Shown: piece after piece, positions 11,494 to 36,203 of the stretch | How positions within the stretch are numbered: position 1 is the stretch's first letter | Layout of the letters: each line of letters opens with the position of its first letter | NCBI GenBank assembly: GCA_028289605.1 | Contig: JANQON010000011.1 | Location: forward strand, 62,001-126,000 | Source of the DNA: Hyphococcus sp. | Lineage (GTDB): Bacteria > Pseudomonadota > Alphaproteobacteria > Caulobacterales > Parvularculaceae | Length of the DNA: 64,000 bases | Direction of reading: 5' to 3' | Program-made: the position numbers and the translations under genes | Notes under the pieces: generated by a model | Database searches by the model: none | Told to the model about the DNA's origin: nothing | What the model saw: the letters and a program-made list of their open reading frames with translations, nothing else

Positions 11494-12512
11494 AGCGCCG
11501 CTCGCGGATCGAGCGCTGCATGCAGAATGTCGATCAAGAGATAGACGATCAGCGAAATCGCCGAAATGATGAGAACGACGCCCTGGATCGCCGGATAATC
11601 GAAGGCGAGAATTGAACGGATCGCATACTGACCAATACCGCCTAGAGAAAAGACGGACTCAATCAACACAGCGCCGCCGAGCATGAACCCGTAAAGCACG
11701 CCGATGAGAGTCATCGATGGCGCAAAAGCCGCGTGGAGGGCGGAGAGCGCAACCTGGCGTTCGGGCAGACCCGCGGCGCGCGCATAAAGAACAAAATCCG
11801 CCTGGAGCGCTTCGGCCATGTTCTGGCGCACCATCTTGATGATCGGACCTGAAAGTATGAACGCCTGCGTCAGCACCGGCAGGGAGAGATACCGGACCGC
11901 CTCCGCCGTCACACCGGGGCGTCCCGCAAGGAGGCCGTCGATGGTCATGAAACCGGTAATGGCTGTGGGCGGGTCGGTGAGCGGCGACAGCCGCCCGAGC
12001 GGGCCGGGCGCGATCCCCAGCACAACAAAGAAGACGAAAATGAACATGATCGCCCATGAAAATTCCGGTTGAGATCCAGCAAAGAGGCCGAAGACGAGCG
12101 TGCCCTTGTCCGCAGCGCCCCCTGGGCGGACGGCGCCCAGAACGCCGAGCGGCACACCGATGATGCAGGCGAGCAGAAAGGAGTACGTTAAAAGCTCTAG
12201 CGTCACCGGCAAGGCGCGCGCGACTTCGGCCGCGACGGCGTCACCTGTGACCCACGAACGCCCGAGCGACCCCTGAAGTAAGCCGTCGCCGCCCGTTACA
12301 CCCAGAAAATCGCCAAGCTGTTTCGGGATTGACTGATCGAGGCCGAGATTAGATTTCGCCGCGGCATAAGCTTCAGGGCTTGCATTGAGGCCGACGAAAC
12401 GCGCAACCGGATCGGCGGGCAACAGGCGAATCAGCAGAAAAACTGCGATAATCAGTACAAAAAGCTGAATGCCTCCTACAGCCAGTCGCCTGATAATGAA
12501 CCGGCCCATCAT
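11490..12512 (-). CDS. Peptide-type ABC importer permease, DppB-like
   Basis: A 340-residue inner-membrane permease of the DppB/OppB type. It has an N-terminal helix (IIRRLAVGGIQLFVLIIAVF), a periplasmic loop with LGLDQSIPKQ and GSLGRSW, and a C-terminal transport domain with the EAA-like loop YARAAGLPERQVALSALHAAF and the final SVFSLGGIGQYAIRSI helix motif. It starts at an ATGATG that overlaps the stop of the substrate-binding protein gene by 4 bases. Its neighbours supply the second permease and the fused ATPase. Confidence 0.9.
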   Translation of the reverse strand: MMGRFIIRRLAVGGIQLFVLIIAVFLLIRLLPADPVARFVGLNASPEAYAAAKSNLGLDQSIPKQLGDFLGVTGGDGLLQGSLGRSWVTGDAVAAEVARALPVTLELLTYSFLLACIIGVPLGVLGAVRPGGAADKGTLVFGLFAGSQPEFSWAIMFIFVFFVVLGIAPGPLGRLSPLTDPPTAITGFMTIDGLLAGRPGVTAEAVRYLSLPVLTQAFILSGPIIKMVRQNMAEALQADFVLYARAAGLPERQVALSALHAAFAPSMTLIGVLYGFMLGGAVLIESVFSLGGIGQYAIRSILAFDYPAIQGVVLIISAISLIVYLLIDILHAALDPRAAL

Positions 12513-14206
12513 CGCGCAATCTCAAGATCCGCGAAGCGCACGGCGTTGTCCGGATGCCAGGTGAGACCGGAAACATGATCGCGCACGGCCCATTGCGTTC
12601 GGTATTCAACGACCGGCGCCCAGGCGACGATCTCTGCAAGGCGGCGCTGCCCATCGGCGATCCTGGCTGCGCGTTCCTCTCCCGCCGGCAGGCTTGCAGC
12701 CGCCAGCGCAGCGGCGTCAACCGACGGGTCCGCGACGTTGACCATATTGTTGATCCCCCCGGCGTCCGGCGAGGCGAAAAAGAGAGACAGCGCATAACCT
12801 GCGTCGACAACGACAGGCTTTTCCTGGTCGTTCAGCGCGAACGGTAAATCCTTTTTGACAAGCTGACGGTCGCCATACTGCGTCAATGGAATGGGATCGA
12901 GTTCAACCGGTACGCCGATTTCGCGCAAGGCGGTCTGCAGCATTGTGGCGATCGGACCGAGAGTTGCCTCCTTTTCCGCCACATAGGCAAGACGAAGGCT
13001 CTCCTGGAAGCCTCTCAGCCCTTCACCCTCAGGAAAGCCGGCTTCCGCAAGAAGACGGCGCGCTGCGTCGGGATCGTAGTAGTCTTCGTCGAGCGCGTCG
13101 ACAAAACCGGGATATGTCGACGGCGTGACGCCGCGCCAGGCCCGCGCCTCTCCGAAATATCCGTTGCGGATTATTTTTTCTGTCGGCAGCGCGCGCGCAA
13201 TGGCTTCGCGGAATTTCAGATTGTCGAAAGGCGGCGTTTTGAAATTCATGTGCAGGAACAGCGTTTCATTGCCGACGACGCCGGCGACCCGCGCGCCGTC
13301 GACGTCTGCGAGTGCTGAAAATTCGCGCGGCGTTAGGCGCTCGGCCATATCCGCCTCGCCGCTTTTGACCAGAATGAACCTGTTCGAACTTTGCGGAATG
13401 CGTTTGATGACGACGCGCTTCAGCGCCGGCGCGCCGCGATAGTAGTTTTCGTTGGCGCGCATCACGAACATGTCGTTTTTGGCCCAACGCTCCAGGCAGT
13501 AAGGCCCGAAACCCGGCGCTGTGACGTTATTGACATAATCATGCGCCCAGGGGTCGTCGTCCGTTGCGTGTTTCTGTGTTTCCTTGCTGTCGAATATGAG
13601 CATGCCGTAGGTGGTCATGATTGGTAAGAACAGTGCGTTGCGACCACTCACCCTGATTTCAACCGTGTAGCGATCAACGCGTCTGACCGCATCGCCAATT
13701 ACGCGCGCCGCTTCATCTTCGAACACAGAAGCGTCGAAACCGGAAACGCCGGCGGTTGAAGCCAGAAACCAGCCCACCGGAATCGCGCCGGAGACCGACT
13801 TTCCCCGTGCAAACGTATAGACGACATCGTCGGCGGTAAGCTCGTTGCCGGCGCAGCTGAAAACGCCCTCGCGCAGCTTAAAGACCCATGACCGCCGAGC
13901 CTCGTTATAGCGCCAACTCTCCGACAGACGCGGCGCGAATGTCTCAAAGTCGGGCAACGCCACGCCATCTTCATTCTCGTCGCCATAAGCGTAACCGATC
14001 AGCGGTTCCATCAGATTGACCATGCCAGTCTGACTTGTCGGCAAAGCCGCTGCAGGTCCGTCATAGTCAAGACCAGCCGGTACGTCTTCGGCGAGATAGA
14101 TCAGCGTAGCTTCACTTGGCCGGTCGGGAGCAATAGGGCCGCACGCAACGGAAATGGCAATCCACGGCACTGTAACCAACAAACGTGAGACGTAATGGAA
14201 CTGCAT
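12509..14206 (-). CDS. ABC importer substrate-binding lipoprotein (SBP family 5)
   Basis: A protein of about 565 residues of the extracellular solute-binding family 5 (DppA/OppA type). It has a lipoprotein-like N-terminus (MQFHYVSRLL, then ISVACG with a lipobox-like cysteine near residue 21), so it would be anchored in the periplasm. Typical family features include WVFKLREGVFSCAGNELTADDVVYTF and, later, ARALPTEKIIRNGYFGEARAW. The frame is open to 14305, where a TTG start is possible; the ATG at 14206 was chosen because it places the signal segment at the N-terminus, although no strong ribosome site is visible. The ligand is unknown. The operon context (TonB receptor upstream, GMC dehydrogenase downstream) argues against an ordinary dipeptide system. 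Confidence 0.85.
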   Translation of the reverse strand: MQFHYVSRLLVTVPWIAISVACGPIAPDRPSEATLIYLAEDVPAGLDYDGPAAALPTSQTGMVNLMEPLIGYAYGDENEDGVALPDFETFAPRLSESWRYNEARRSWVFKLREGVFSCAGNELTADDVVYTFARGKSVSGAIPVGWFLASTAGVSGFDASVFEDEAARVIGDAVRRVDRYTVEIRVSGRNALFLPIMTTYGMLIFDSKETQKHATDDDPWAHDYVNNVTAPGFGPYCLERWAKNDMFVMRANENYYRGAPALKRVVIKRIPQSSNRFILVKSGEADMAERLTPREFSALADVDGARVAGVVGNETLFLHMNFKTPPFDNLKFREAIARALPTEKIIRNGYFGEARAWRGVTPSTYPGFVDALDEDYYDPDAARRLLAEAGFPEGEGLRGFQESLRLAYVAEKEATLGPIATMLQTALREIGVPVELDPIPLTQYGDRQLVKKDLPFALNDQEKPVVVDAGYALSLFFASPDAGGINNMVNVADPSVDAAALAAASLPAGEERAARIADGQRRLAEIVAWAPVVEYRTQWAVRDHVSGLTWHPDNAVRFADLEIAR

Positions 14207-14310
14207 TTGCAAAAACGGCTTGCTCCAGCTGCGCAATGTGTTCGTTCGCTCTAAACTCAAAACGGCGGGCGCGTTCCAAACTACAGCGTTTTTCGTCGTA
14301 CACAAATAAG

Positions 14311-14323
14311 CGCCGCGTCGGCG
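14311..14323 (-). terminator. Short stem-loop after the TonB receptor gene
   Basis: On the minus strand CGCCG-ACG-CGGCG is followed by CTTATTTGTG, a small GC-rich hairpin with a T-rich tail between the TonB receptor stop (14380) and the binding-protein start (14206). It is short and would be at best a leaky terminator or attenuator. Confidence 0.3.
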
Positions 14324-14379
14324 GGCTCACGCTAAAATGAAACTCTGTCGCGCAACGAGAGCGAGCCTAGTCGACGACG

Positions 14380-16608
14380 CTAGAATCGAACCGAAACCTC
14401 GGCGCCCCATGTCCGCGGCTGTGCGCGGAACGTGACATGCGTCGTACCGGGAAAGCCAGGATCAATCATTGTTATTGGGTCTAAGTCATCGGTATCGACG
14501 GTGACGACATCCTCAGCGTAGAGTTGGTTGGTGATGTTCTTGGCCCAGAACGCCAGCCCCCAACGTTCCGTCTCAAAAGAAACGCGGCCATTCACCAAGT
14601 TCAACGCCTCGCGCTGCGTGGGCGCGAAATTCGCGGAGTTAAACTCGGTTTCTCCGCGATACTCGTAACCGATGTTGGATACCATTTGCAGGCCGTCGAT
14701 CGAAGATGCGCCGCTGAGATCGGCAATATGCGTTACGGAAATGTTGCCGGTGAAATCCGGCGTAAACGGCGCTGTATTGCCGACTTGTTCAGGCTTTGCC
14801 GCGAATTCCGTGATCTCCGCGTCAATGTAACCAATGCCCGCCGCAATGGTTAGGTTGTCGCCCAGTTCCGCATTGGCTTCGAGTTCGAAGCCGATAAGTC
14901 GGACCTCGTCAATCGTTTCAACGGCGTTCAATGTTCCCGCCGGAACAAAGATGAACTGCTGTGCATTGGATTTCGTATTGTGGAATGCAGCGCCGCTAAG
15001 AAAAAACGCGCCATCCGCCAACGTCGTTTTGAAGCCAAGCTCAAAACTATCCGCCGTCGATTCACCAAACTCATTCGGGACGGCGCCGCCGGTGCGCGTA
15101 AATGTCTGCGCGCCGTTAAAGCCGCCCGCCTGGAAGCCGCGCGCATAACCGCCAAAGATGGTGAGATTGTCGAGCGCTTGGTATGTTAGCGTCGCTTTTG
15201 GCTGAAACTGATCGAAAGACAGCTCGCGTTCTTCACCAAATGTCGGCGATAGTGAAGAGGCGTCGACAGATCGCTTGTCCTCATTGTCGTACCGTCCGGC
15301 CAGCAGGATTGTCAGATCGCTCGTTAAATCATATTCCAGACTTGCGAACAAAGCCCAGGCTTCTGTGAACACATTATCCGATATGAGCCCGGTCGTTTCG
15401 TTCAATTCGCCCGCCGGTCGCGGCGTGAAGGCCGGAAGCACGAAACCGGGAACATCGTCCACGCCGATGGCCGCATGGATATTCGGCGTATTGTCGATGT
15501 CAGTGTAATAGCCGCCGACCATATACCGGAATGGCTGATCGGAGCGTGACGTAAACCTCAACTCCTGCGCAAACGCTTCATGCGAAACTACGTTGAATTG
15601 CGTGCCGCTGGGAAAGGGGAAATACGGAAAATCGTCGCTGCCGAAAACGTCCAGGATATCGTCGTAAGTCGACACGCTGGTCAGCGTTCCAAGATCCGTT
15701 TCATAGTCAACCTTGAGCGCATATCCCTGTTTGTCTTGATCATTAAAGCCCAGAACATTCCGCACAAAGGGAATTTCATGGACGCGATTGATGTTCAAGA
15801 TCGCTGTCTCGGGAGTCGTCTGCAGCACAGGCCACGACGTTTGAGGAGAAAACTGCGTCGCGCCCCCGTTTACGGTGGCGAGATTAACGCGGGCGTCGAC
15901 GCTTAGGGCTTCTGTCGGCGTCCAGAGCAACCGAATGCGGCCGACCTTTTCATTGAAGCGGTCCTCGTAAACGCCGTTGGTAATGTTCTGAAAAAAACCC
16001 CGTCGATCAGTTAGCGCGCCCGAAACCCGCAAGAATAAGGTATCTTCAACCAGAGGAATGTTGACACCCAGAGTCGCGCGCATGGATTCGCCATTGCCAT
16101 ATCCGGCGGTGGCGAACGCTTCGAATTCATTTGTCGGCGTCTTCGTATTGATGACGATTGCGCCAGCGATCGCGTTTCGACCGTAAAGGTAGCCTTGCGG
16201 GCCTTTGAGCACCTCAATTTGTTCGATGTCGAACAATTCTCCGGTGAAACCGTTGCGGCCGGTCATGACGACGCCGTCGATCACGATAGCGACGGGCGCT
16301 TCTGTGTTTCGCGTCTGTACGTCGCCGCGAATGGTGATCAGGCTTTCACCGGCGTTGTTGCTGTCAATCAGCTGAACATTCGGCGTGAACTGAAGAAAGT
16401 CGTTTGGACGCCGAATATTCATCTGTTCGATCGTTTCGGCGTCATAGACGGTGATGGCCGCCGGCACGTCCTGCAGCGACTGATCGCGCTTCGTGCCTGT
16501 GACGATTATCTGATCTTGTTGCGCCGCCGCCGCCGTCGTCAACGCGACGGCCGCCGCCCCAGACAGAAGCGAAAACTTGCTGAAACGCATGATGAAATCT
16601 TGGTGCAT
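14380..16608 (-). CDS. TonB-dependent outer-membrane receptor
   Basis: A 742-residue receptor with a signal peptide (RFSKFSLLSGAAAVALTTAAAA), then a TonB-box-like IIVTGTKRDQSLQDVP and a plug domain (about 40-160) with VEVLKGPQGYLYGRNAIAGAI-type plug sequence. A 22-strand beta-barrel follows, ending in the outer-membrane signature VSVRF with terminal Phe. The ATG at 16608 follows GGGAGGGAACA, an excellent ribosome site, so the longer open frame upstream is rejected. It precedes an ABC importer and GMC dehydrogenase on the same strand and is divergent from a MarR regulator. Plug style and length are those of the FecA/IroN-like Alpha- and Gammaproteobacterial receptors used for diverse organics. 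Substrate unknown. Confidence 0.92.
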   Translation of the reverse strand: MHQDFIMRFSKFSLLSGAAAVALTTAAAAQQDQIIVTGTKRDQSLQDVPAAITVYDAETIEQMNIRRPNDFLQFTPNVQLIDSNNAGESLITIRGDVQTRNTEAPVAIVIDGVVMTGRNGFTGELFDIEQIEVLKGPQGYLYGRNAIAGAIVINTKTPTNEFEAFATAGYGNGESMRATLGVNIPLVEDTLFLRVSGALTDRRGFFQNITNGVYEDRFNEKVGRIRLLWTPTEALSVDARVNLATVNGGATQFSPQTSWPVLQTTPETAILNINRVHEIPFVRNVLGFNDQDKQGYALKVDYETDLGTLTSVSTYDDILDVFGSDDFPYFPFPSGTQFNVVSHEAFAQELRFTSRSDQPFRYMVGGYYTDIDNTPNIHAAIGVDDVPGFVLPAFTPRPAGELNETTGLISDNVFTEAWALFASLEYDLTSDLTILLAGRYDNEDKRSVDASSLSPTFGEERELSFDQFQPKATLTYQALDNLTIFGGYARGFQAGGFNGAQTFTRTGGAVPNEFGESTADSFELGFKTTLADGAFFLSGAAFHNTKSNAQQFIFVPAGTLNAVETIDEVRLIGFELEANAELGDNLTIAAGIGYIDAEITEFAAKPEQVGNTAPFTPDFTGNISVTHIADLSGASSIDGLQMVSNIGYEYRGETEFNSANFAPTQREALNLVNGRVSFETERWGLAFWAKNITNQLYAEDVVTVDTDDLDPITMIDPGFPGTTHVTFRAQPRTWGAEVSVRF

Positions 16609-16663
16609 TGTTCCCTCCCGGCGGGCCTTGCTGGACCAGAGGACCATAAGCTGAGGCATTTTT

Positions 16664-16681
16664 TACCTTTTTGTCAAGGTA
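16664..16681. promoter_or_regulatory. Palindromic operator candidate overlapping a -35 box
   Basis: TACCTTTTTGTCAAGGTA has perfect 6-base arms (TACCTT/AAGGTA) and lies between the divergent TonB receptor and MarR genes. Read on the minus strand it contains TTGACA, a consensus -35 element, 64 bases before the receptor start. No clear -10 follows at standard spacing. A repressor bound here would block receptor transcription, and the adjacent MarR protein is the obvious candidate. Confidence 0.45.
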
Positions 16682-16762
16682 TTTTAGGATTATTGATAAG
16701 CAATCGGGCCCGCCCTGGGCTAAAATGGCGAAAGCGCTGATTCTGATGTGGAGACGCAAGCG

Positions 16763-17275
16763 ATGCCGACTAAAGACCGTCTTGATTTCCTGACCGAGAA
16801 CTGGACTGAAGTCCGGCCTGATCTCGACATTTCTCCATGGGGCGTATGGGGCAGGACAACCCGCATCACCGAGATCTTTCGCGGAGAAATCGGCAAGCTG
16901 CTGCGCACGTTCGACCTAACCTACTCAGAATTTCAAACACTTGGCGCGCTTTTGCTGAATGGGCCGCCATTTGAGGGCAGCCCCAGCCAAATCGCGCGCT
17001 TCAATCTTCTGACGTCCGGCGGCATGGCGAATTTGCTGTCTCGCATGGAGCGAGAGGAGTTGATTGTGAGGCGCGGCGACCCCGAAGACGGCCGCGGCGT
17101 CCTCGTCAGCATTACGGACTATGGTCGAGAGCGCTTCAACACAGCCGTCACCGAAGAGAATTCGGCCGAACACAGGATGCTTCGCGGCCTGACGCCCGAG
17201 GAACAAGAGCTTTTAAAAATACTTTTGAGAAAGCTACTTTTGAGCATTGATCCCGACGAGCCTGGCAAGAATTGA
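16763..17275 (+). CDS. MarR-family transcriptional regulator
   Basis: A 170-residue winged-helix protein. An N-terminal dimer helix is followed by the DNA-binding region containing PSQIARFNLLTSGGMANLLSRMEREELIVRRG and the wing DPEDGRGVLVSITDYG, where the D-x-R-G pattern is characteristic of MarR proteins. A C-terminal helix completes the dimer interface. The ATG at 16763 was chosen because GGAG lies 9 bases upstream; a GTG at 16748 in frame is an alternative. It is divergent from the TonB receptor of the ABC/GMC operon and a palindrome lies between them, so it probably controls that operon. MarR proteins usually respond to small aromatic or phenolic ligands, but the ligand here is unknown. 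Confidence 0.88.
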   Translation: MPTKDRLDFLTENWTEVRPDLDISPWGVWGRTTRITEIFRGEIGKLLRTFDLTYSEFQTLGALLLNGPPFEGSPSQIARFNLLTSGGMANLLSRMEREELIVRRGDPEDGRGVLVSITDYGRERFNTAVTEENSAEHRMLRGLTPEEQELLKILLRKLLLSIDPDEPGKN

Positions 17276-17863: not shown

Positions 17864-19036
17864 ATGAAGAGCCCAAAGACCAAAAAGAATCGCACCCCGA
17901 AACGGGCAAAAAAAACGTCTACGTCGTTTTTTGAGCCGTCTGACAGCGAAAAGAAAATCCTGAGCGCCGTATTGCGCGGAAGCGGGCTTACACAGCCGGA
18001 GATTTCTCGTCAGACCGCTCTCGCACAACAAAGCGTATCCCGCCTCGTCAACGGGCTGATCGAAAACGGAGCGCTGTGCGAAGGAGAACGAAAATCTGAC
18101 GGGCGCCGGGGCCAGCCCTCAATGGCTGTCGAGATCGCGCCGGATTTCGCCTACACCTTTGGCGTCGCTATCATGACCGACGCACTGTCGATCGCGCTCA
18201 TGGACTTTTCCGGAGTCGTGCTTGAACAGGCGGAAAACGACATGCCGGCCATGACTCGCGCCGCCGTCATCGAAACACTGAACAACACATTCGACAAATT
18301 CATCAGAAAACGACGCCTATCTCGAGCAAAGATCCTCGGCGTCGGCGTCGGTATATCGGGATACAGTCTTGGAGGCCATGGCCGCTACAACACACCGCGT
18401 ACGCTTGATGACTGGGCGCTCGTCGATATCGAGGAATTGTTGCAGGAGCAACTTGGTCTCCCTGTTTGGGTTGAAAATGACGGTAACGCAGCGGCAATCG
18501 GCGAAAGCCTTGTCGGGGCCGGACGAACATATGACAACTTCGCCTATCTGTTCTTTTCCACCGGCATCGGCGGAGGGATTATCATCGATCACGAGTTGAT
18601 GCGCGGCGTGAACGGCAATGGCGGCGAGATAGGCCTTTTGTTGCCGCGCGCCGTTTATCCGCATCCAAATCTTGAGCTCTTGCGTCAGATGGTTGCGCAG
18701 CAAGGAGTCCAAGTAACCGGCATTTCCGATATGCTTGCGAAGTTTGACCCGGATTGGCCGGCGGTCGACGAATGGATCGCGCGCACCCGCGATTCACTGT
18801 CTTTGATCGCGTCTTCTCTGGCGGCGATTCTTGATCCCGAGGCGATCGTATTCGGCGGAAGAATACCTAAGTCCCTCGCCCGCAAGACGATTCCGCATAT
18901 CGAGATATTCGACGACGCGAGGCGGGCGGAGCCGCGGCAGGTGCCGCGCCTGATGGTTTCCGAAACGAACGGCGACGCCTGCGCAATTGGTGCGGCCGCG
19001 CTTTCCTTCAACAAGCGATACTTCAAGGCGCTGTAG
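17864..19036 (+). CDS. ROK-family transcriptional regulator (NagC/XylR-like)
   Basis: A 390-residue repressor-type protein. A very basic N-terminal tail (residues 1-20, rich in Lys/Arg) is followed by a winged helix (about 25-85: LTQPEISRQTALAQQSVSRLVNGLIENGAL) and a ROK sugar-kinase-like domain. The ROK part keeps VWVENDGNAAAIGE and STGIGGGIIID, but the zinc-site GH...C.C motif is absent or altered (GNGGEIGLLLPRAV). It probably senses a sugar or sugar phosphate. It faces a convergent ROK kinase gene at the end of a TonB/symporter/hydrolase operon, so regulation of that operon is the simplest reading, though no operator could be defined. Confidence 0.88.
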   Translation: MKSPKTKKNRTPKRAKKTSTSFFEPSDSEKKILSAVLRGSGLTQPEISRQTALAQQSVSRLVNGLIENGALCEGERKSDGRRGQPSMAVEIAPDFAYTFGVAIMTDALSIALMDFSGVVLEQAENDMPAMTRAAVIETLNNTFDKFIRKRRLSRAKILGVGVGISGYSLGGHGRYNTPRTLDDWALVDIEELLQEQLGLPVWVENDGNAAAIGESLVGAGRTYDNFAYLFFSTGIGGGIIIDHELMRGVNGNGGEIGLLLPRAVYPHPNLELLRQMVAQQGVQVTGISDMLAKFDPDWPAVDEWIARTRDSLSLIASSLAAILDPEAIVFGGRIPKSLARKTIPHIEIFDDARRAEPRQVPRLMVSETNGDACAIGAAALSFNKRYFKAL

Positions 19037-19142
19037 AGCCTGGGCTAGAATTGCAGGGACTTTCAGCGCTTCGGATTTAGGCGCCCATTGACCCTGCTGA
19101 CACATGCGCTGGGCAGAACTTGTCGCGTTCGAACACCGGGCG

Positions 19143-20048
19143 TTACAACGACGTCCGCTCCGCCGCCATTGTCATTGCGCCGACGACGCCGGCGTTTCCG
19201 CCCAATCGCGCCGGAACAATGAACTCATCCAATGAGCGAAAGGAGCGCGCGCCGTAGTAATCATTGAGACTTTCGGCAAAAGCGTGGCGGATCATGTCGA
19301 ATAGATGGCTGCGTTGCATAACGCCGCCGCCAAGAATGATCTTGGCCGGAGAAACACACAGGAAGACGTTCATACACAAAATGGAAATGTAATAGGCGAC
19401 CGCCCTCCAAACGGGGTCTTCCTCCGGGATTTCATCGGCTTTGACGCCGTGTCGGGCCATGATCGCTGGACCCGACGCCAATCCTTCGACGCACCGATCC
19501 CGGTGATAGTCACATACGCCCGCAAAATCCGCATCGATCGGATGTTTCGGGACGAACATGTGCCCTAACTCCGGATGCGACTCACCATGGACAATATCGC
19601 CGTTAATCATCAGGCCGGCTCCGACGCCAGTTCCGATAGTGACGTAGGCGATATTCTTTTCGCCCTCGCCTGCGCCGTACCGCGCCTCGCCGAGTAAGGC
19701 GCAGTTGACGTCAGTGTCCAGCGACAACGAGCCGCCCATGCGTAACCGTAACGGCGTGAGGATGTCCGCGTTACGCCATTTGGCCTTCGGCGTAGATAGG
19801 ATCTGTCCGTATGTCTTGGATCTCTGAGACAAATCGACGGGCCCAAACGCGCCAACGCCGATCGCCTTCAATGGTCCATGAGTTTCAGACATGCTGCTGA
19901 AAAAATCGCAAACAGCGCCTAGCGTCTCGTCCGGAGTCGTTGTCGCGATACTGGCTCTTTCGATGATTTCGGCGGGATGCTTGCCCACAGCGCAAATAAA
20001 CTTTGTGCCGCCCGCCTCAACGCCGCCAAGTAGCATTGCGTCCGTCAT
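19143..20048 (-). CDS. ROK-family hexose kinase (fructokinase/mannokinase type)
   Basis: A 301-residue cytoplasmic kinase. The N-terminal phosphate motif GGVEAGGTK is at 8-16, the catalytic-aspartate motif is SLDTDVNCALLGE, and the ROK zinc region reads HPELGHMFVPKHPIDADFAGVCDYHRDRCVEGLASGPA. The GVC-x-x-H-x-x-x-C-x-EGLASGPA pattern is that of bacterial fructokinases, which commonly phosphorylate mannose as well. The ATG at 20048 was chosen from GGCGAGG upstream and the canonical N-terminus. It starts 18 bases after the hydrolase stop and is the last gene of the operon. In the proposed hexosyl-glycerate pathway it would phosphorylate the released mannose or glucose at carbon 6. Confidence 0.88.
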   Translation of the reverse strand: MTDAMLLGGVEAGGTKFICAVGKHPAEIIERASIATTTPDETLGAVCDFFSSMSETHGPLKAIGVGAFGPVDLSQRSKTYGQILSTPKAKWRNADILTPLRLRMGGSLSLDTDVNCALLGEARYGAGEGEKNIAYVTIGTGVGAGLMINGDIVHGESHPELGHMFVPKHPIDADFAGVCDYHRDRCVEGLASGPAIMARHGVKADEIPEEDPVWRAVAYYISILCMNVFLCVSPAKIILGGGVMQRSHLFDMIRHAFAESLNDYYGARSFRSLDEFIVPARLGGNAGVVGAMTMAAERTSL

Positions 20049-20065
20049 TATCGCCTCGCCAAACT

Positions 20066-21355
20066 TCAGGCGGCGCCTTTCATTGACTGTGGCTGGCCGC
20101 CCGCCTTCGCGAGATGAAGCCACATCGCGGCGGTCCAGGAAAAGTCGGCGCCGCCCGTACCTTCCCCCGTGATGGGACAGTAAGCTTCATAGAAGCCGGT
20201 TTTCTCGATCAGTTTCCGCGTGTCACCGTAAATCCTCGCCGCCGCTTTTTCTAAGCCCGCTTCAGCCAGACCGAGGGCAACCATCGTGTTGACGATTGCC
20301 CAAACCGGCCCGCGCCAATACAAAATGGAATTGAATTTGTCGTGGTCCGGATCGTGACTCGGAAGCATGTAGCGAACGCGCTTCGAGATCCGATCAAAGT
20401 TTTCGAGGAGATGCTCTTTTTGCGACGGTGTTCCCACACCGGCATAGAATGACAAAAACGAGGCGCTGGTAACCATGGATGACGACTTGCCTGTTATCGC
20501 GTCCCGAGAGCAAAACGCCCTTGATTCCTCATCCCATAAATAATCGACGCTCTCTTCGGTGAGTTTTATGCGACTTGAAAGCTCGTCACACTCATCACTG
20601 GTTCCGAAGAATTCTGCAAGTCGCAAGAGGTCGCGGTTGGCGCGTAGCAAAATCATTGTCATGCCGATATCGAAGACACGAAACGGTCCGTTTTTGGCGA
20701 TCGCCGCGTGCTCCCAATCGTTATCGCGACCGCTTTGAAGAATCGCGATGTAGCGATCATAGTCGTCCGTACTTGGACGCATGTCGTGATCAATGAGCGC
20801 CAGGTCGCGCCGCTGGTAGGGTTCAACCTTTGTGGTGTCGACGGCGTTCGCGGGCTCGTCCCACTCCGGAGAATTGTCGCGACCGCTCTCCCATGGATGC
20901 GTGCAAAGAACCAATCCCTTGTTCAATGGGTCGCGATATCTGTGGAACCATCGGTGCCATGCAAGTAATTTGGGGTATAGCGCGGCGACGCGCGCCTCAT
21001 CATGGTCTGCGCTTTCCCACATCCAACGCGTGATGCTCGCGGCGACGGGGGGTTGCGTTATCCCGGATGTCTCCGGCGACTTACCGGTGCGCCAGACAGA
21101 CGGGCCCGGAAAGTAGCTAGGGTCATCTACTCGAAACACAATGTGCGGCAAAAACCCATCTGTCCATTGCGCATCAAAAAGCGTTTCGATTTCTCGCCAT
21201 GCCCGATCCCGATCGAATGTCGCAAATCCCAGAGCCACAAATGCGGAATCCCAATTCCACTGATAGGGGTAAAGACCGGCGGTTGGCACTGTATAGCCGC
21301 CACGGTCATTGTCTTTTAGAATCTCTATCGCTTTTTCATCGAGCGCATCAGGCAT
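20066..21355 (-). CDS. GH63-like glycoside hydrolase, candidate mannosyl/glucosylglycerate hydrolase
   Basis: A 429-residue (alpha/alpha)6-barrel hydrolase without a signal peptide, so cytoplasmic. Key motifs are YPYQWNWDSAF (Asp36), HPWESGRDNSP (Asp160, likely general acid) and PITGEGTGGADFSWTAA (Glu398, likely general base). The spacing Asp36-Asp160-Glu398 is almost identical to that I remember for Thermus mannosylglycerate hydrolase (43-167-404), and the length is close to that enzyme and to mycobacterial glucosylglycerate hydrolase. It overlaps the glycerate 2-kinase gene by 8 bases, and glycerate is exactly what such a hydrolase releases. Alternatives within GH63 are alpha-glucosidase or trehalase-like activity on another alpha-glucoside. 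Confidence 0.8.
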   Translation of the reverse strand: MPDALDEKAIEILKDNDRGGYTVPTAGLYPYQWNWDSAFVALGFATFDRDRAWREIETLFDAQWTDGFLPHIVFRVDDPSYFPGPSVWRTGKSPETSGITQPPVAASITRWMWESADHDEARVAALYPKLLAWHRWFHRYRDPLNKGLVLCTHPWESGRDNSPEWDEPANAVDTTKVEPYQRRDLALIDHDMRPSTDDYDRYIAILQSGRDNDWEHAAIAKNGPFRVFDIGMTMILLRANRDLLRLAEFFGTSDECDELSSRIKLTEESVDYLWDEESRAFCSRDAITGKSSSMVTSASFLSFYAGVGTPSQKEHLLENFDRISKRVRYMLPSHDPDHDKFNSILYWRGPVWAIVNTMVALGLAEAGLEKAAARIYGDTRKLIEKTGFYEAYCPITGEGTGGADFSWTAAMWLHLAKAGGQPQSMKGAA

Positions 21356-22601
21356 GGCCGTTCACCAGTGTGATTCGTATATCGTTGACGTTGGTTCGCG
21401 TTGGCCCCGTGACGATAAGGTCTCCGGCGGCTTCAAATAATCGATAAGTCTGATTGGCGGCGCGTAACCGATCGATGCTGACGCCGGCGGCGGTGAAACG
21501 CCCGACCGATCCGCCGTCGACATAGGCGCCGGCACTATCCTCCGTGCCGTCAACGCCGTCGCTATCGCAGGCCACAGCGGCGATTGGGGCGCCTTCGGGA
21601 AGGTGCTCGGCAAACGCCGCCAGATACTCGAGATTTGGACCGCCGCAGCCTTCGGCGTGTTGCACTTGAACCGTCAGTTCCCCTCCAGAGACAAATGCGG
21701 TCGGCAATTTTTCCCATGAAGCTTCCGTCGCCAGCTCAGCATGTCGCAAGCCGATCGCGCCGGCGTCTCCGGTAATGTCAGCGCCGAGATTGTTGACGCG
21801 CCAACCATCATCTTTTAGGCGAGCGGAAACTTCGTTGAGTGCATCAGCGTTAGTTGCGAGAATATGCGTTTCGTGCGACGGCGGCGGTGCTAAAGAGGCT
21901 GTCCTTATGGCTCGTTCAAGGGCATTCGAGACAACACATCCGTAGTGGCGCAATAACCTTATTGCCCTCTCCGGGTCCCTCTTTGAAAAGACCGTTGGGC
22001 CTGACGCCACATCGGCGGGATTATCTCCCACGACATCTGAAATAATGTAGGTGATCTGCTCTGCGGGCGCCGCCATTGCAGAAAGTCCGCCGCCCTTTAC
22101 GCGCGAAAGGTGCTTGCGGATGAAGTTAATGTCCTCGATTGGCGCGCCGGAGAGGATAAGCGATTTTGAAATCGCTCGTTTTTCTTCAAAGTCCAATCCT
22201 TCGATCGGGCACGCGAGCAAGGCGGAGCCGCCGCCGGAAATAAAAAACAGCACACGATCATCTGGGCCGGCGGCCGCGACGGCCGCCATGATTTTTCTTG
22301 TCGCCGCAATACCGTTTTGATCGGGCGTCGGATGACCGGCTTCGAAAACCTCAACGGACCCCGTTTTAGTTTTCGCTCCGTGACCGTACCGCGTAACGAC
22401 GCAACCCGACACCTCTCCTTCCAAGTGCTCGAACGCTACAGCAGCCATTTCCGCCGCCGCCTTCCCGGCCCCGAGAATGATAGTCCGGCCGGACGGCGCC
22501 TCAGCCGGCAAATAGGGCGGGAGCACGTTTTTCGGCGAGCATCTCGCAACGCCCGCCAGGAACAAGGACGTTAGAAAGTCTTTTTGGCTAGGCGCGCTCA
22601 T
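21348..22601 (-). CDS. Glycerate 2-kinase (MOFRL family)
   Basis: A 417-residue cytoplasmic kinase of the GckA/TtuD (MOFRL) family that makes 2-phosphoglycerate from D-glycerate. Features are IILGAGKAAAEMA near residue 40, FISGGGSALLACP near 120, the lysine-bearing stretch INFIRKHLSRVKGGGLS, DVVGDNPADVASGPT, and the C-terminal MOFRL region with VACDSDGVDGTEDSAGAYVD and VTGPTRTNVNDI. The ATG at 22601 overlaps the symporter stop by 4 bases (ATGA). The longer open frame upstream runs inside the symporter gene and is rejected. Between a symporter and a candidate hexosyl-glycerate hydrolase, it links the locus to lower glycolysis. Confidence 0.92.
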   Translation of the reverse strand: MSAPSQKDFLTSLFLAGVARCSPKNVLPPYLPAEAPSGRTIILGAGKAAAEMAAVAFEHLEGEVSGCVVTRYGHGAKTKTGSVEVFEAGHPTPDQNGIAATRKIMAAVAAAGPDDRVLFFISGGGSALLACPIEGLDFEEKRAISKSLILSGAPIEDINFIRKHLSRVKGGGLSAMAAPAEQITYIISDVVGDNPADVASGPTVFSKRDPERAIRLLRHYGCVVSNALERAIRTASLAPPPSHETHILATNADALNEVSARLKDDGWRVNNLGADITGDAGAIGLRHAELATEASWEKLPTAFVSGGELTVQVQHAEGCGGPNLEYLAAFAEHLPEGAPIAAVACDSDGVDGTEDSAGAYVDGGSVGRFTAAGVSIDRLRAANQTYRLFEAAGDLIVTGPTRTNVNDIRITLVNGHA

Positions 22602-24190
22602 GAGGCCAATCCACTGCCGATGACTCCCATCCAAACGCTGAAAGCGACCATAAAGACGAAAAATCCGACCAGAAGGACAATCATCAAACGGCGCGTTGAA
22701 TGAGAGGGCGCGCCCTCCAAGACCACGCCATCGCTCGACGGCGCCGGTTGTTCTTTTGCCCCCACGGAAACGGCCGAGGCCACGCCGACAGTGATGAGGA
22801 GACCAATCAAATTCCACCACATCCAGAAAATTTGGGGTTGATATCGCCAGAGATAGAGGTTGACCGCCAGTCCCAAAAGCAAACCGGCATTCGCCCCGAC
22901 GGCGCTGACGCGCTTCGACAGCATACCGATCAAGAACACACCCAAAATTGGTCCGTACAGCGCAGAACCGACTTTGTTGATCGCCTCGATGACTGTCGGT
23001 GCGATTGATCCTGCGAATGCGGACAAAACAAGAATCACAATCCCCCAGAAAATCGAAACGCCGCGCGCCCAAGCCACCTCGTTTTTTCCGTCTTTTGTTT
23101 TGACGCCTAACACCGACAGATCTTCAAGCGTCACCGCCGCAAGCGAGTTGACCGCTGAACTTAGCGATGACATGGCCGCAGCCATAATGGCCACCAGCAA
23201 CAATCCGATCAGACCGTGAGGGAGATTTTCCAGGATGAACACCGGCATCATGTAGTCGGGCTTGTCTGCGGGAATCTGCGCCATGAGCGATGCATCGTTG
23301 GCGACGGAAACGCCAATGATCAGCCCCGCAAAACAGTAGAGCACCACAAGCGGGAACCGAAGGAGACCGTTCGCCAGCAACAAGCGCCGCGCGTCCGGCA
23401 AGCCTTTCGCTGAGAGAATCCGTTGGGCTTGGGTTTGATCACAACCGTAATATGAGGCGTAAAGAACAAATCCGCCAAAAACCATCGGAAGGAAGCCGAA
23501 CTCATCGCCCGAAAGCCCAAGGGAGCTGAAATCAACCGCTGTCAGTCTTGTCGGATCGACCTCCCGCCAGAAATTCCCGAATCCGCCAATGTCAACGAGG
23601 GCGTACCACGCAACAAGGAGTAGCCCTCCGAAGATCAACACCATTTGAACAGCGTCGCCATAGACGACCGCTTTCATGCCCCCCGATGTCGAATAAATCA
23701 GCGTTATGAGTCCTACAACGGCGATCGATTGCCAGAATGGAATGCCGAGCGCTGCATCGAGAATGAGGCCAACAGCATACACCATGATTCCAGTGGCGAA
23801 TGAGCGAACAATTTGAAATGAAAAACTAATGAGAATGCGCGTCGAACGGCCGAACTTTTGGTCGAGATATTCATAGATGCTGACAATCCCAGCGCGATAG
23901 AGCGCCGGCGCGATGACGAACATCACGAGTATCATCGCCAGCGGAACCGAAAACTCGTACGTCAGCCATTTGAGTCCGCCGCCTTCGCGCAATCCGACAA
24001 AAGCAGGCGCTGAGATGAAACTAATCGCCGACAACTGCGTCGCCATCGTAGACAGCGTGAGCGGAAACCATCCTAGACTTCGTCCGCCGAGAAAATAATC
24101 GCCCTCGTCTGATTGGTTGCGAAGCAAGTACCCAAAAAAGAGCAACGCGCCCAGATAGCCTGCAATAACGGTGTAATCTAGCGCGTTCAT
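22598..24190 (-). CDS. Sodium/solute symporter (SSS family)
   Basis: A 530-residue inner-membrane transporter with about 13-14 helices. SSS/SGLT features are the N-terminal DYFLGGRSLGWFPLTLSTMATQLSAISFISAPAF, the signature-like STSGGMKAVVYGDAVQM, and YGCDQTQAQRILSAKGLPDAR. These point to sodium-coupled uptake of a sugar, glycoside or carboxylate. The ATG at 24190 heads a run of four tightly linked genes (symporter, glycerate kinase, hydrolase, hexose kinase). It is preceded by a TonB receptor gene on the same strand, separated by 230 bases with two stem-loops. Proposed to carry the intact glycoside across the inner membrane, since the hydrolase lacks a signal peptide. Confidence 0.92.
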   Translation of the reverse strand: MNALDYTVIAGYLGALLFFGYLLRNQSDEGDYFLGGRSLGWFPLTLSTMATQLSAISFISAPAFVGLREGGGLKWLTYEFSVPLAMILVMFVIAPALYRAGIVSIYEYLDQKFGRSTRILISFSFQIVRSFATGIMVYAVGLILDAALGIPFWQSIAVVGLITLIYSTSGGMKAVVYGDAVQMVLIFGGLLLVAWYALVDIGGFGNFWREVDPTRLTAVDFSSLGLSGDEFGFLPMVFGGFVLYASYYGCDQTQAQRILSAKGLPDARRLLLANGLLRFPLVVLYCFAGLIIGVSVANDASLMAQIPADKPDYMMPVFILENLPHGLIGLLLVAIMAAAMSSLSSAVNSLAAVTLEDLSVLGVKTKDGKNEVAWARGVSIFWGIVILVLSAFAGSIAPTVIEAINKVGSALYGPILGVFLIGMLSKRVSAVGANAGLLLGLAVNLYLWRYQPQIFWMWWNLIGLLITVGVASAVSVGAKEQPAPSSDGVVLEGAPSHSTRRLMIVLLVGFFVFMVAFSVWMGVIGSGLAS

Positions 24191-24260
24191 GTTCGCTGCT
24201 TCTCCGTCGTGTATCGCCGCCGATTCGAGGCCTTCATATTACATGGATCAGATTGTGAAA

Positions 24261-24310
24261 GGCGCAGCGTCGGGGTTTCCTCGGGAGGGAGAGAAGTCCG
24301 GCGCTGCGCC
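24261..24310 (-). terminator. Long stem-loop between TonB receptor and symporter genes
   Basis: Arms of 13 bases (24261-24273 and 24298-24310, GGCGCAGCG... / ...CGCTGCGCC, one G-U pair) enclose a 24-base loop. On the minus strand the stem is followed by TTTCACAATC. It lies after the TonB receptor stop and before the symporter start, fitting a partial terminator or attenuator that lowers expression of the cytoplasmic genes. Confidence 0.5.
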
Positions 24311-24379
24311 CATGCCCCCGCGCTAACAAGACGAGGAATGCACTTAACCCCACTCGAACAGCAAGCCGCCCGGCGCGAG

Positions 24380-24405
24380 CTTGGACGAAATAAATCTCGT
24401 CCAAG
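24380..24405 (-). terminator. Stem-loop directly after the TonB receptor stop
   Basis: Perfect 9-base arms CTTGGACGA / TCGTCCAAG with an 8-base AT-rich loop start about 15 bases after the receptor stop codon. There is no U-tract, so mRNA 3'-end protection or Rho-assisted termination is as likely as intrinsic termination. Confidence 0.45.
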
Positions 24406-24420
24406 ACTCGGCGACGCCAG

Positions 24421-26922
24421 TTAGAAGTCGTAGGTCGCCCTCACCGTGATTCGTCGGGGCAGGATCGGCCGCCCGACAAAGAAGGCCTGTCCGCCGGTCT
24501 GAGCATCGCCCTGCCGCGGAGAACCTTCTGTCGCGGTGTCGGCGTCGAACAGATTGAAGACATTGACGCTCAGCCGAACAGCTTGATTGTCGCCAACCTC
24601 ATGGGTGTAGCCGCCCTCAATCCGGACGAGGTTGTAGGAGTCCAGCATAACCGTATTGCCGTCATTGGCGAAGTTTTCGCCATGATAATTATGGAAAATG
24701 CTGAAATCGAAACGCCCGTCATCATAAGTGGCGCCCGTATTGAAGGTTAGGTTGGGCTGGCGACGAAGTTCGTTACCCTGATTAACCTGATTGCCCAGAT
24801 TATCTGTAAAGTCGGTGAACTCATGGTCGCGCCAAGTCAGGTTACCGTTGAACGTCAGAAAATCGGTTGCGCGAAAAACTGCGCCCGCCTCAACGCCGAT
24901 CGCGCGCGTTGACTGCACGGCAACCTGATTGATGATGCCGCCCATGCCGTCATTGACAAAATCGACAGACTGCCGGCCATCGAGTGTTGTCCAGAAACCG
25001 GTGACATAACCGGACACTCGGTCCGTATCAAACTTGACACCCGCTTCGGCGGTCTTGATGATCTCGCCTTCATAGGGACCGGTTTGACTGGTGTCGAAAA
25101 TGAATTGCGCGCTGCGCACTTCCGGGAAGAAGAATCCTCTCGAGAAGTTGCCGAACAGGTTAATGTTATCCGACACGTTATAGAGGATGCTGCCGGACGC
25201 CGCCCATTCGGTATCTGAAACTTCGCCAATGCGCGAGTCGCCGTTTTGGAAGCCGACATTCTCAATCGAGTTATTGACCTGAGGGTCATCGGAGACCTGG
25301 AACTGCGACAATTCCCGTTGAAGGACTTCGCCTTCGATCCTTTCGATGCGGAAACCAACATCGATCGAAAGCCTGCCAGCCTCGATCTGGTCCGCAAGAT
25401 ATACTGCGTAGCGCTGGGCTTCACGATCACGATCGCCGACCACGCCATTGGCGTTCAATAACCCGTTTTGCGTAACCTGGAACACCGTCCCCGGCGCCGC
25501 AGCAACCAGCGTGCCGTCCGGCGCTTCCGTCGCGCCGTCAATGACAATGTCGACCAGACGCGGTTCGCTTCTGAAATCGGTGACATAGGTCGTGATGAAG
25601 TTCAGATCCTTGGCTTCCGTATTTGCAAAGAAGCCGCCAAGCGTAAAGGTGTGTTCTGCGCCGCCCCAGTCCACAGACTTGGAGATGTTCACTTCGCCGG
25701 AGAAATCGGTTGCGTCGCGCACGCGATCCAGGGTGCGGTTGCCGAACAGGAGAAAATTATCGGGAACGGCGCTTCCGTCGTCGAGGAAAACAGCGCTTGC
25801 GGCGCCGACGCCGCCAAAGCCAAGTTCGTCGACATAGTCCGACGTTGTAAACGGTAGGTTGGTGACGCCGTCGCCATCCAGGAACAAATTGAACTGATGG
25901 TCGTATTCGGCATATTTGCCTTTGGCGTTTATGTTCCAGCCGTCCCCGAATTCCTTGTCGAAAACAAAAGCGAGCGAGCCGCCTTCGGTGACGACGCCGT
26001 CTTCAATCGGCGTCTCAAAGCGGCCATCGGGCGTCAGATAAGACAGTTGGCCCGCCTGCGCCGTGTTGAGCGTAAAGACCTCGCGGCCGTCATTGCCGAT
26101 GGCCCGTTCGCGAGTCGCTCCATCGAGCGGTAATGGCAGGAAGAATTGAACCTGGTCATCAATATACTGACCATAAACCGTAAACGCGCCGGAGCCGTCG
26201 TCGAACTCGTGTTTGATGTTGCCTCTCAGCTGGAACCCTTCCGTGTCGAGACCGGAAACGAGTGTTCCCTCGTCATGACGGTAGTATGCGGAAATCGCGT
26301 AAAACGTGTCGCTATCTGCGCCGCCGATTGGACCGCTGTGATAGATGTCGCCTCGGAAGCGACCGCGATTAGCCCATTCAATCTGCGCCGTTCCTTCGCT
26401 TTCCGGGCCGCCGGTCTTTGAGATGTAGTTGATGATACCGGCCACTGAACCAGGACCGAAAAGGTTCGAGACACCGCCGGTCACATATTCAAGACGCTCG
26501 ATGCCAAGATCATTCCTGTAATAAACGTCGAACGCGGATGAATTCAGCCCGAATGTCGAGAAGGCGGGAATGCCGTCATAGAGAAGCGGCGTGAACTGAA
26601 ATTGACCGCCTGAGGGAAGGCCGCGGACGAAAAAGTTTGTCGCCACTTCGCCGCCGCCGCCTTCTGCGCTGACGCCTGGAAGCTGAGTCAGAATGTCCGC
26701 CTGGTTCGCCGCGGTGAACTTGCGCAAGTCTTCTTCGGGAAACGCGTTCACTGATTGCGGCGTATCAAAACCGGTCCGTCCTTTCGCCGTACCGGTGACG
26801 ATGATGAGATCGTTCGTTTCGATATTTGCATCCTCATCGTCGCCTTGGGCCGCAGCGCCGACCGGAATCGCCATCGACGCCGTCGTAGCGAATAACAAAA
26901 GCTTCCATTTTTTGACTGTCAT
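24421..26922 (-). CDS. TonB-dependent outer-membrane receptor of the proposed hexosyl-glycerate locus
   Basis: An 833-residue receptor with a signal peptide (KKWKLLLFATTASMAIPVGAAA), an acidic linker, a TonB-box-like DLIIVTGTAKG and a plug domain with GSVAGIINYISKTGG. A long beta-barrel ends in VRATYDF with terminal Phe. The plug and barrel resemble receptors for carbohydrates or small glycosides rather than classical siderophore receptors, but this cannot be settled by eye. It is the first gene upstream of the symporter, glycerate kinase, GH63-like hydrolase and hexose kinase, all on the same strand. The start ATG at 26922 has a purine-rich AGGGAGGC upstream. Confidence 0.9.
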   Translation of the reverse strand: MTVKKWKLLLFATTASMAIPVGAAAQGDDEDANIETNDLIIVTGTAKGRTGFDTPQSVNAFPEEDLRKFTAANQADILTQLPGVSAEGGGGEVATNFFVRGLPSGGQFQFTPLLYDGIPAFSTFGLNSSAFDVYYRNDLGIERLEYVTGGVSNLFGPGSVAGIINYISKTGGPESEGTAQIEWANRGRFRGDIYHSGPIGGADSDTFYAISAYYRHDEGTLVSGLDTEGFQLRGNIKHEFDDGSGAFTVYGQYIDDQVQFFLPLPLDGATRERAIGNDGREVFTLNTAQAGQLSYLTPDGRFETPIEDGVVTEGGSLAFVFDKEFGDGWNINAKGKYAEYDHQFNLFLDGDGVTNLPFTTSDYVDELGFGGVGAASAVFLDDGSAVPDNFLLFGNRTLDRVRDATDFSGEVNISKSVDWGGAEHTFTLGGFFANTEAKDLNFITTYVTDFRSEPRLVDIVIDGATEAPDGTLVAAAPGTVFQVTQNGLLNANGVVGDRDREAQRYAVYLADQIEAGRLSIDVGFRIERIEGEVLQRELSQFQVSDDPQVNNSIENVGFQNGDSRIGEVSDTEWAASGSILYNVSDNINLFGNFSRGFFFPEVRSAQFIFDTSQTGPYEGEIIKTAEAGVKFDTDRVSGYVTGFWTTLDGRQSVDFVNDGMGGIINQVAVQSTRAIGVEAGAVFRATDFLTFNGNLTWRDHEFTDFTDNLGNQVNQGNELRRQPNLTFNTGATYDDGRFDFSIFHNYHGENFANDGNTVMLDSYNLVRIEGGYTHEVGDNQAVRLSVNVFNLFDADTATEGSPRQGDAQTGGQAFFVGRPILPRRITVRATYDF

Positions 26923-27186
26923 TTATGCCTCCCTATATCACCGCATTGTCGGCGTTTGCGCGCGCGTGTGAGCGCGCACCGTCAGTGGTAAATGATTTTC
27001 ACCCACAATACAACTTATGTTAGGTTTTATTTAAACGCTTATATAGATTGGGAAAATTATGATATTGCCTTCGCAGCTGCAGCAAATACGGCGCCCTACG
27101 AGGAGCAGCCGAGGGACGCATGTTCATGGTTCGGGTTGCCGCTGGGGAGCCGATACGAAGACCGCTCAGCTACGGGCGAAACGCCG

Positions 27187-27615
27187 ATGAGCGCCAAATT
27201 TGAAATTGTTACGGGCGACAGCTCTGACGCCGGATCCATCAAAGACAATCTGCTCTTGTCGCTGCAGTCGAAAAATCCGCAGGCGACCAACACGTCGTTT
27301 TGCTATTCTGCAAAGCACAAAAACGGAGAGCTCGCAGGAGGCGTAAACGCCTCCACCGCTTACGGGTGGCTGCTCATCAATTCCATATGGGTCAGCGAAA
27401 ATGTACGCGGCTGCGGCCTCGGCCGAAAATTGATTGAACACGCCGAGGAAAAAGCCCGGCGCCTTGGCTGTCATGCGGCATGGCTGGACACATCCGATAG
27501 CGACGCCCGAAATTTTTATGAGCATCTTGGCTATAGCGTATTCGCCAAGATCAAAAATGATGCGGGGCACGTCCCGCCGCAGCATTGTAGGTGGTTCTTA
27601 AAGCGCGCGCTTTGA
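27187..27615 (+). CDS. GNAT-family N-acetyltransferase
   Basis: A protein of about 142 residues. The acetyl-CoA binding motif is SIWVSENVRGCGLGRKLIEHAEEKARRLGCHAAWLDT (the R-G-x-G-x-G/L loop), followed by DARNFYEHLGYSVFAKI, the usual fourth GNAT segment. The open frame reaches back to 26992, but that part translates to a low-complexity sequence with no domain, so the ATG at 27187 is preferred even though its ribosome site is weak. It is divergent from the TonB receptor gene, and nothing connects it functionally to either neighbour. The acceptor substrate is unknown. Confidence 0.75.
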   Translation: MSAKFEIVTGDSSDAGSIKDNLLLSLQSKNPQATNTSFCYSAKHKNGELAGGVNASTAYGWLLINSIWVSENVRGCGLGRKLIEHAEEKARRLGCHAAWLDTSDSDARNFYEHLGYSVFAKIKNDAGHVPPQHCRWFLKRAL

Positions 27616-36057: not shown

Positions 36058-36123
36058 CGCTCCCTTATGATTTTCGCCGCCGCTTTAGCGGCTGTTACCG
36101 AGAACCTTACGGGAAAAATTTGG

Positions 36124-36150
36124 ATTGGACAATAATTATTACAGTCCAAT
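36124..36150. promoter_or_regulatory. Inverted repeat in the PL6 promoter region
   Basis: Perfect 7-base arms ATTGGAC and GTCCAAT are separated by 13 bases that contain the self-complementary AATAATTATT. It lies 67 bases upstream of the PL6 lyase start in a markedly AT-rich 146-base gap. A regulator site for the lyase operon is likely; the neighbouring FadR-type protein is the candidate. Confidence 0.45.
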
Positions 36151-36172
36151 TATTCAAAATAGGTCAAATTAT

Positions 36173-36179
36173 TTGGTAT
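36173..36179 (+). promoter_or_regulatory. TTGGTAT half-site near the PL6 promoter
   Basis: A single TTGGTAT copy identical to the half-site that occurs as a pair upstream of the GntR gene and upstream of the alginate TonB receptor gene. Here a second copy at 13-base spacing is not clear. Confidence 0.3.
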
Positions 36180-36203
36180 GCACAGGAGGCTCAAGGAACA
36201 GCC

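Follow-up and report, generated by a model that had tools for sequence, protein, structure and literature searches.

Mannosylglycerate (digeneaside) is a salt-protecting compound of some red algae and microbes, and Escherichia coli catabolizes it from the outside through mngAB, in which a phosphotransferase system imports and phosphorylates the glycoside and a GH38 enzyme acts on the phosphorylated form. In Thermus, a mannosylglycerate hydrolase (MgH; PDB entries 2z07 and 4wva) presumably serves the turnover of the thermophile's own osmolyte. For other sugars, the TonB loci of Xanthomonas and Caulobacter for sucrose and maltose combine a TonB receptor, an inner-membrane carrier, a cytoplasmic enzyme and a regulator. 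Here we describe a 64,000-nucleotide stretch of Hyphococcus sp. DNA (contig JANQON010000011.1, positions 62,001 to 126,000; hereafter the window), in which a six-gene cassette at 17864-26922 is proposed to be a ROK-regulated operon scavenging external alpha-mannosyl-D-glycerate as a carbon source, a reading to which we give a probability of about 0.78. The cassette follows the general plan of the sucrose and maltose loci and differs from them in substrate, hydrolase family and regulator family; it carries a TonB receptor, an SSS-family carrier and an MGH1-type hydrolase, none of which is known from mngAB, and unlike the Thermus enzyme its hydrolase sits in a putative uptake operon. Dozens of other bacterial genomes carry gene sets related to this one.

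The features of the cassette and its upstream region are the following:

17864-19036, plus strand: ROK-family transcription regulator, winged helix and ROK domain, proposed to respond to mannosylglycerate or mannose (Pfam ROK 101 bits, MarR_2 32 bits)
19143-20048, minus strand: ScrK-like ROK hexose kinase, proposed mannokinase (best-scoring NCBIfam family ScrK, NF045550, 267 bits, below the cut-off of 400)
20066-21355, minus strand: MGH1-type (GH63-like) hydrolase, predicted cytoplasmic mannosylglycerate hydrolase (PF22422, 378 bits)
21348-22601, minus strand: glycerate 2-kinase, DUF4147 and MOFRL domains (Pfam 237 and 99 bits)
22598-24190, minus strand: sodium:solute symporter of the SSS family, proposed to bring the anionic glycoside over the inner membrane (TIGR00813, 223 bits, cut-off 184)
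24421-26922, minus strand: TonB-dependent receptor, proposed outer-membrane importer (Pfam Plug and barrel)
27007-27028, minus strand: imperfect palindrome AAAACCTAACATAAGTTGTATT upstream of the receptor gene, predicted to be the operator for the ROK regulator

All six proteins score above their Pfam cut-offs, and the series with its convergent ROK regulator, recognized by a first-pass annotation made from the letters alone, is thereby borne out. The junctions of 4-18 bases given there hold from symporter to ROK kinase (the symporter and glycerate kinase genes overlap by 4 nt, the glycerate kinase and hydrolase genes by 8 nt, and 17 nt separate the hydrolase and ROK kinase genes), and do not hold for the receptor, which sits 230 bp upstream of the symporter. 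The ROK kinase and ROK regulator genes converge with 106 bp between them. The cassette is more than a chance neighbourhood, because a second genome from this genus (locus L115 of G686) keeps all six genes in identical order and orientation, at 56-85% identity. The flanks of L115, judged by eye from translations, are chemotaxis-like on one side, and transposase-like and aminotransferase-like on the other; the transposase-like frame, also recognized by eye (13668-14489 of that locus), lies about 1.1 kb past the regulator and is compatible with horizontal transfer.

Gene families, layout, active-site residues, the conserved neighbourhood and a conserved operator-like motif can be read from the sequences; from these we infer a substrate, a mode of transport, kinase specificities, an isomerase and a mode of repression, in the following order of events. 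The TonB receptor would carry the intact anionic glycoside over the outer membrane and the SSS symporter would carry it, still intact, over the inner membrane, whereupon the cytoplasmic hydrolase would split mannosylglycerate into mannose and D-glycerate, probably with inversion by analogy with its relatives. Glycerate 2-kinase would convert D-glycerate into 2-phosphoglycerate, the ScrK-like ROK kinase would convert mannose into mannose-6-phosphate, and the latter may enter central metabolism via an isomerase encoded elsewhere, a candidate being an AGE-family protein beside manC. The ROK regulator would repress from the palindrome at 27007-27028 until released by the substrate or a product. 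Import of an intact hexosyl-glycerate, its hydrolysis and the use of two kinases had already been suggested in the first-pass annotation, and are supported by the kinship of the hydrolase with MgH, by the residues that it keeps and by the co-occurrence of hydrolase and kinase genes.

What, then, identifies the hydrolase? It matches PF22422 (MGH1-like_GH) over profile positions 1-356 of 356, far above the cut-off of 27 bits, and Glyco_hydro_63 weakly. Its best match in the PDB is MgH of Thermus thermophilus (2z07, 388 bits, nearly full length), with which it has active-site residues in common, and the entries for mycobacterial glucosylglycerate hydrolase (GgH) reach about half that score (187-194 bits), a comparison of closeness that involves one MgH and one GgH only. 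The GgH of Mycolicibacterium hassiacum (MhGgH; 5ohc; PMC6608630) belongs to the same family, shares conserved catalytic and substrate residues and, unlike the putative uptake operon of the window, mobilises an internal reserve. By alignment, Asp36, Asp160 and Glu390 of the window hydrolase correspond to Asp43, Asp182 and Glu419 of MhGgH, and mapping onto MhGgH and Thermus MgH makes Asp160 the predicted catalytic acid and Glu390 the base; of the catalytic residues named earlier, Asp36 and Asp160 thus stand, and Glu398 gives way to Glu390 as general base. The conserved substrate residues are kept (Tyr29, Trp33, Trp35, Asp36, Tyr81, Gln101, Gly158, Arg193, Tyr199, Tyr346 and Trp347). A comparison with solved relatives places MgH nearest and finds the glycerate-contacting residues in place. 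No signal peptide is apparent by eye, in agreement with the earlier reading, and the start of the protein coincides with that of the Thermus enzyme.

Conservation was followed in 99 related loci, composed of the best 80 of 566 relatives and 19 loci from further genomes, whose neighbouring genes were identified through tblastn searches with seed proteins that came in part from these same loci. The catalytic and substrate residues listed in the MhGgH report (PMC6608630) are nearly invariant among the 99 homologues. Gln434 of MhGgH, a glucose contact, is replaced by Phe in Thermus MgH, in the window hydrolase and in 99 of 99 homologues; as a test of mannosyl versus glucosyl preference this position was set aside as weak, Phe being probably the default of the family, distant homologues included. 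A hydrolase tree groups the window protein with L115 and L001 and spreads the partner genes considered below over separate clades. The window hydrolase is not decisively joined by this tree to either characterized enzyme, MgH or GgH, the deep branches being weak and long (quick method, midpoint root, several long branches meeting).

The nature of the hexose is best approached through the partner genes in related loci. In five Opitutales loci (L048, L054, L059, L063 and L076), whose hydrolases are about 51-52% identical to that of the window, a mannosyl-3-phosphoglycerate synthase adjoins the hydrolase (TIGR02460, 473-481 bits, cut-off 351), together with a phosphatase of the mannosyl-3-phosphoglycerate phosphatase family (above the cut-off of TIGR01486, below that of the equivalog TIGR02461); this comparison covered the five Opitutales loci out of seven in Verrucomicrobia, the other two being L075 and L077. 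Such synthesis genes beside a hydrolase may form a module that makes and recycles an osmolyte. An AGE-family mannose-isomerase-like protein lies within 3 kb of the hydrolase in 10 of the 99 loci (59-84% identical to the L005 seed, or themselves the seeds L005, L011 and L039), and within 6 kb in two further loci (48-50% to a seed), giving a total of 12. D-mannose isomerase is the best NCBIfam model in the three AGE proteins tested (201-217 bits, below the cut-off of 600), and seven of the ten loci also have a PfkB kinase, for which fructokinase was the best model in the two tested. Lastly, L021 and L026 have downstream an SDR protein, an SGL lactonase-like protein and a mannonate dehydratase that exceeds the cut-off of TIGR00695, with an additional KDG-kinase-like protein in L021. 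The synthase, AGE and mannonate partners belong to separate parts of the tree, and all point to mannose.

The kinases of the window are consistent with this picture. The ROK kinase scores 125 bits with the ROK glucokinase model, and in the PDB it is much closer to putative fructokinases (3ohr and 1xc3, 269 and 268 bits) than to glucokinase 3vgk (85 bits); this kinase and the kinases tested from three other loci are all ScrK-like and all below the ScrK cut-off. Apart from the two ROK genes of the cassette, the genome has no PF00480 match, and it encodes a separate PF02685 glucokinase elsewhere. That the operon has a ScrK-like kinase of its own in addition to this glucokinase suggests that the hexose is not glucose. 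The glycerate kinase matches glycerate kinase 2b8n at 227 bits and lies below the cut-offs of the NCBIfam glycerate kinase equivalogs (190 of 550 and 160 of 670 bits); a second glycerate kinase is encoded at C17. Compared with solved SSS proteins, the symporter scores 148-174 bits with carriers of iodide, monocarboxylates and multivitamins and about 103 bits with the glucose carrier SGLT, a kinship that would suit an anionic glycoside and proves nothing. None of the solved TonB receptors is close to that of the window, the best being the colicin I receptor at 50 bits.

How closely do these parts travel together? Within the order, the hydrolase is present in 13 of 398 genomes, and in a sample of the class in 13 of 385, the Hyphococcus genome being included in both counts. 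The receptor type (E<=1e-80) was found in 11 of the 398, each time with the hydrolase on the same contig and within about 3.1 kb, in a survey that scored two candidates per genome, so that weaker copies elsewhere could escape; five of these 11 genomes are of one genus, and in G428 the receptor is in two pieces. The hydrolase genomes without this receptor type are G529, where a piece of the hydrolase lies on a 3-kb contig, and G575, which has an ABC-type locus. The cassette is patchy even within its genus, being present in 2 of at least 22 genomes, that of the window included, with 20 same-genus genomes having no hydrolase match among the matches listed. By type, the 99 loci divide into 44 with a TonB receptor, 41 with an ABC system and 14 with neither, and 22 of them have an MFS carrier less than 1 kb away from the hydrolase. 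A survey for conservation of hydrolase with glycerate 2-kinase, as the first-pass annotation had proposed, finds them together: 29 of the 99 loci have the kinase no more than 300 bp from the hydrolase, and 33 have it within 4 kb (30 of the 44 receptor-type loci), for about 0.4 of 99 expected within 4 kb by a hand estimate that assumes two copies in a 4.3-Mb genome and serves as a guide only, related genomes not being independent. In eight ABC-type loci of the Roseibium group, the kinase lies 6.7-8.3 kb from the hydrolase.

This linkage bears on another explanation, in which the hydrolase recycles a compatible solute made by the cell itself and the genes for transport are those of a separate, unrelated system. 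The five Opitutales loci, which pair a homologous hydrolase with mannosylglycerate synthesis genes, speak in its favour. In the Hyphococcus genome, by contrast, no PF09488 mannosyl-3-phosphoglycerate synthase was found (a search that took in neither other routes of synthesis nor glucosyl-3-phosphoglycerate synthase), which makes it unlikely that the cell turns over its own solute by that route, another difference from Thermus; in addition, all 11 genomes with the receptor type have it near the hydrolase, and three of the genes run into one another or lie almost end to end. We regard recycling of a self-made solute as very improbable here.

Several findings nevertheless weigh against scavenging of mannosylglycerate by the proposed route. 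The neighbourhood is not uniform: 14 of the 44 receptor-type loci have no glycerate kinase within 4 kb (in three of these it lies at about 5.1 kb), none of the 41 ABC-type loci has one within that distance, and L001, the nearest relative among the best 80, combines receptor, symporter and hydrolase with neither kinase in the 21 kb covered. The fate of mannose-6-phosphate is a further difficulty, as PF20511 mannose-6-phosphate isomerase was not found in the Hyphococcus genome, the operon itself has no mannose isomerase or mannonate genes, and the one AGE-family protein of the genome, a candidate mannose-6-phosphate isomerase next to a manC-like gene, is weak to all AGE models; solved relatives of the mannose-isomerase-like protein in other loci are deposited as N-acyl/acetylglucosamine 2-epimerases. 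As to the glycoside, NCBIfam provides a single hydrolase name that comes near, glucosylglycerate hydrolase (equivalog NF047898, 341 bits, below the cut-off of 550), and 3 of the 99 loci (L014, L056 and L064) have, at a distance of 1.6-5.9 kb from the hydrolase, a sucrose-phosphorylase-like GH13_18 gene, from a family that includes glucosylglycerate phosphorylases. In L064 this gene stands between symporter and glycerate kinase, and glucosyl- and mannosylglycerate may share the kinase there. Finally, since mycobacterial GgH is reported to cut both mannosyl- and glucosylglycerate (PMC6608630), the hydrolase family may be broad.

The last three of these points, the family name, the phosphorylases and the double activity of the mycobacterial relative, would fit an operon that serves mainly for glucosylglycerate, which could come from cyanobacteria, with a ROK kinase acting on glucose. 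We find this improbable in view of the mannose-specific partner genes in several lineages, with no glucose-specific partner among the selected neighbours scanned, of the ScrK-like kinase in a genome with its own glucokinase, and, as a weak point, of the Phe that replaces the glucose contact. A single operon for both glycosides, with a broad hydrolase and the hexose taken by the ROK kinase or the housekeeping glucokinase, is possible and on the whole doubtful: it would accommodate the activity of the mycobacterial enzyme and the presence of that glucokinase, yet no gene of the window operon specifically indicates glucose, and the dedicated ScrK-like kinase again suggests a non-glucose hexose. 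It overlaps with scavenging of mannosylglycerate, which needs no strict specificity, and the odds of the two are not exclusive.

Beyond the window, the hydrolase lineage would make mannosylglycerate an overlooked and widely scavenged nutrient, taken up by at least three importers (TonB with SSS, TonB with MFS, and ABC), with three exits for mannose (a ScrK-like ROK kinase, a mannose isomerase followed by a fructokinase, and an oxidative mannonate route) and a ROK operator conserved across Alpha- and Gammaproteobacteria. This broader proposal we hold to be an even bet.

Regulation offers another view of the cassette. Homologues of the regulator (>40% identity) occur in 31 of the 99 hydrolase loci, and an expectation-maximization (EM) motif search in 28 upstream regions, that of the window included, with 60 restarts, returned a 24-bp imperfect palindrome at a log-likelihood of 383, for 73-77 in four mononucleotide shuffles of 20 restarts each; good sites are present in 25 of the 28 regions, the exceptions being L002, L004 and L055. 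With a 22-bp matrix built from 18 other loci, the window site at 27007-27028 scores 29.1; no other distinct site in the 64 kb exceeds 9.6, and 30 shuffles reach at most 14.3. With the threshold set at 15, and counted anywhere in the available stretch of each locus, sites are found in 29 of the 31 loci with a regulator homologue (all except L003 and L055, L004 being marginal at 15.9), and in 4 of the 68 loci without one, at scores of 15.9-19.3; outside the matrix, 11 of 13 regulator loci have a site, five of these being near copies of loci used. The conserved palindrome thus tracks the regulator gene and is a predicted operator. In L022, an operator-like site (5936-5957) lies just upstream of the receptor with no regulator homologue in the stretch; the regulator may lie elsewhere. 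In the window, the predicted operator falls just inside the first possible start of a divergent GNAT frame (26992-27615), so the GNAT gene probably starts further downstream.

A genome-wide pattern fitted to the window site, whose own match is by construction, found one other site with one mismatch (G000:C17:457371), inside a long sensor-kinase frame and taken as chance, and the reversed pattern gave 3 matches. A 15-mer common to the window and L115 was strong in few other loci only and was discarded, a simple palindrome search upstream of receptor genes gave nothing consistent, and sigma-70-like promoters were not above chance (5 found, 5.4 in shuffles).

The source of the glycoside is a separate matter. 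Next to the cassette, the window contains an alginate-type locus (31592-41788) with an alginate lyase/heparinase-like protein bearing an Alg17C-type C-terminal domain, a chondroitinase-B-like lyase (the two lyase genes at 31592-36057), a GntR/FCD regulator, a large TonB receptor and an MFS carrier, from which a link to brown and red algae had been argued. This argument is unsupported: when six proteins of the alginate locus were compared by tblastn (E 1e-20, 30% identity) with the 99 hydrolase loci, the KDG kinase alone had a match, in L021, whereas L001 and the 19 kb of L115 had none. Carriers of the hydrolase include Candidatus Phycosocius, Sphingorhabdus and Erythrobacter, which are not known as seaweed bacteria, and the red-algal link of the operon is unproven. 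On the other side, at 7196-17275, a second TonB receptor, a family-5 solute-binding protein, an oligopeptide-type ABC ATPase, a GMC oxidoreductase and a MarR-type regulator possibly serve peptide-like uptake.

The first-pass annotation knew of no described TonB-linked locus of this kind, but digeneaside use, partly TonB/SusCD-linked, is already predicted in Flavobacteriia: digeneaside is among the possible substrates of polysaccharide utilization loci (PULs) of North Sea flavobacteria (PMC6298971), and Maribacter carries homologues of digeneaside degradation genes of Zobellia, with reference to Barbeyron 2016 (PMC8072126). Those loci are of Bacteroidota, whereas cassettes of the present type belong to Proteobacteria and combine a ROK regulator with SSS or MFS carriers; no proteobacterial TonB/SSS/ROK mannosylglycerate locus was found in the literature, most subscription papers and all supplements lying outside the search. 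Already known, therefore, are the parts and the idea of digeneaside use; new are the assembly, its spread, the mannose-leaning context and the conserved operator-like site. What was a vague prediction that algal bacteria may use digeneaside becomes in this way a well-delimited operon, for which a substrate is named, the successive steps are laid out and a site for the regulator is predicted, all of them open to test in a single strain. Should the proposal be true, hydrolases that now carry other names or none could be re-annotated, and the hydrolase together with this type of TonB receptor would provide marker genes for a red-algal and microbial osmolyte in food webs.

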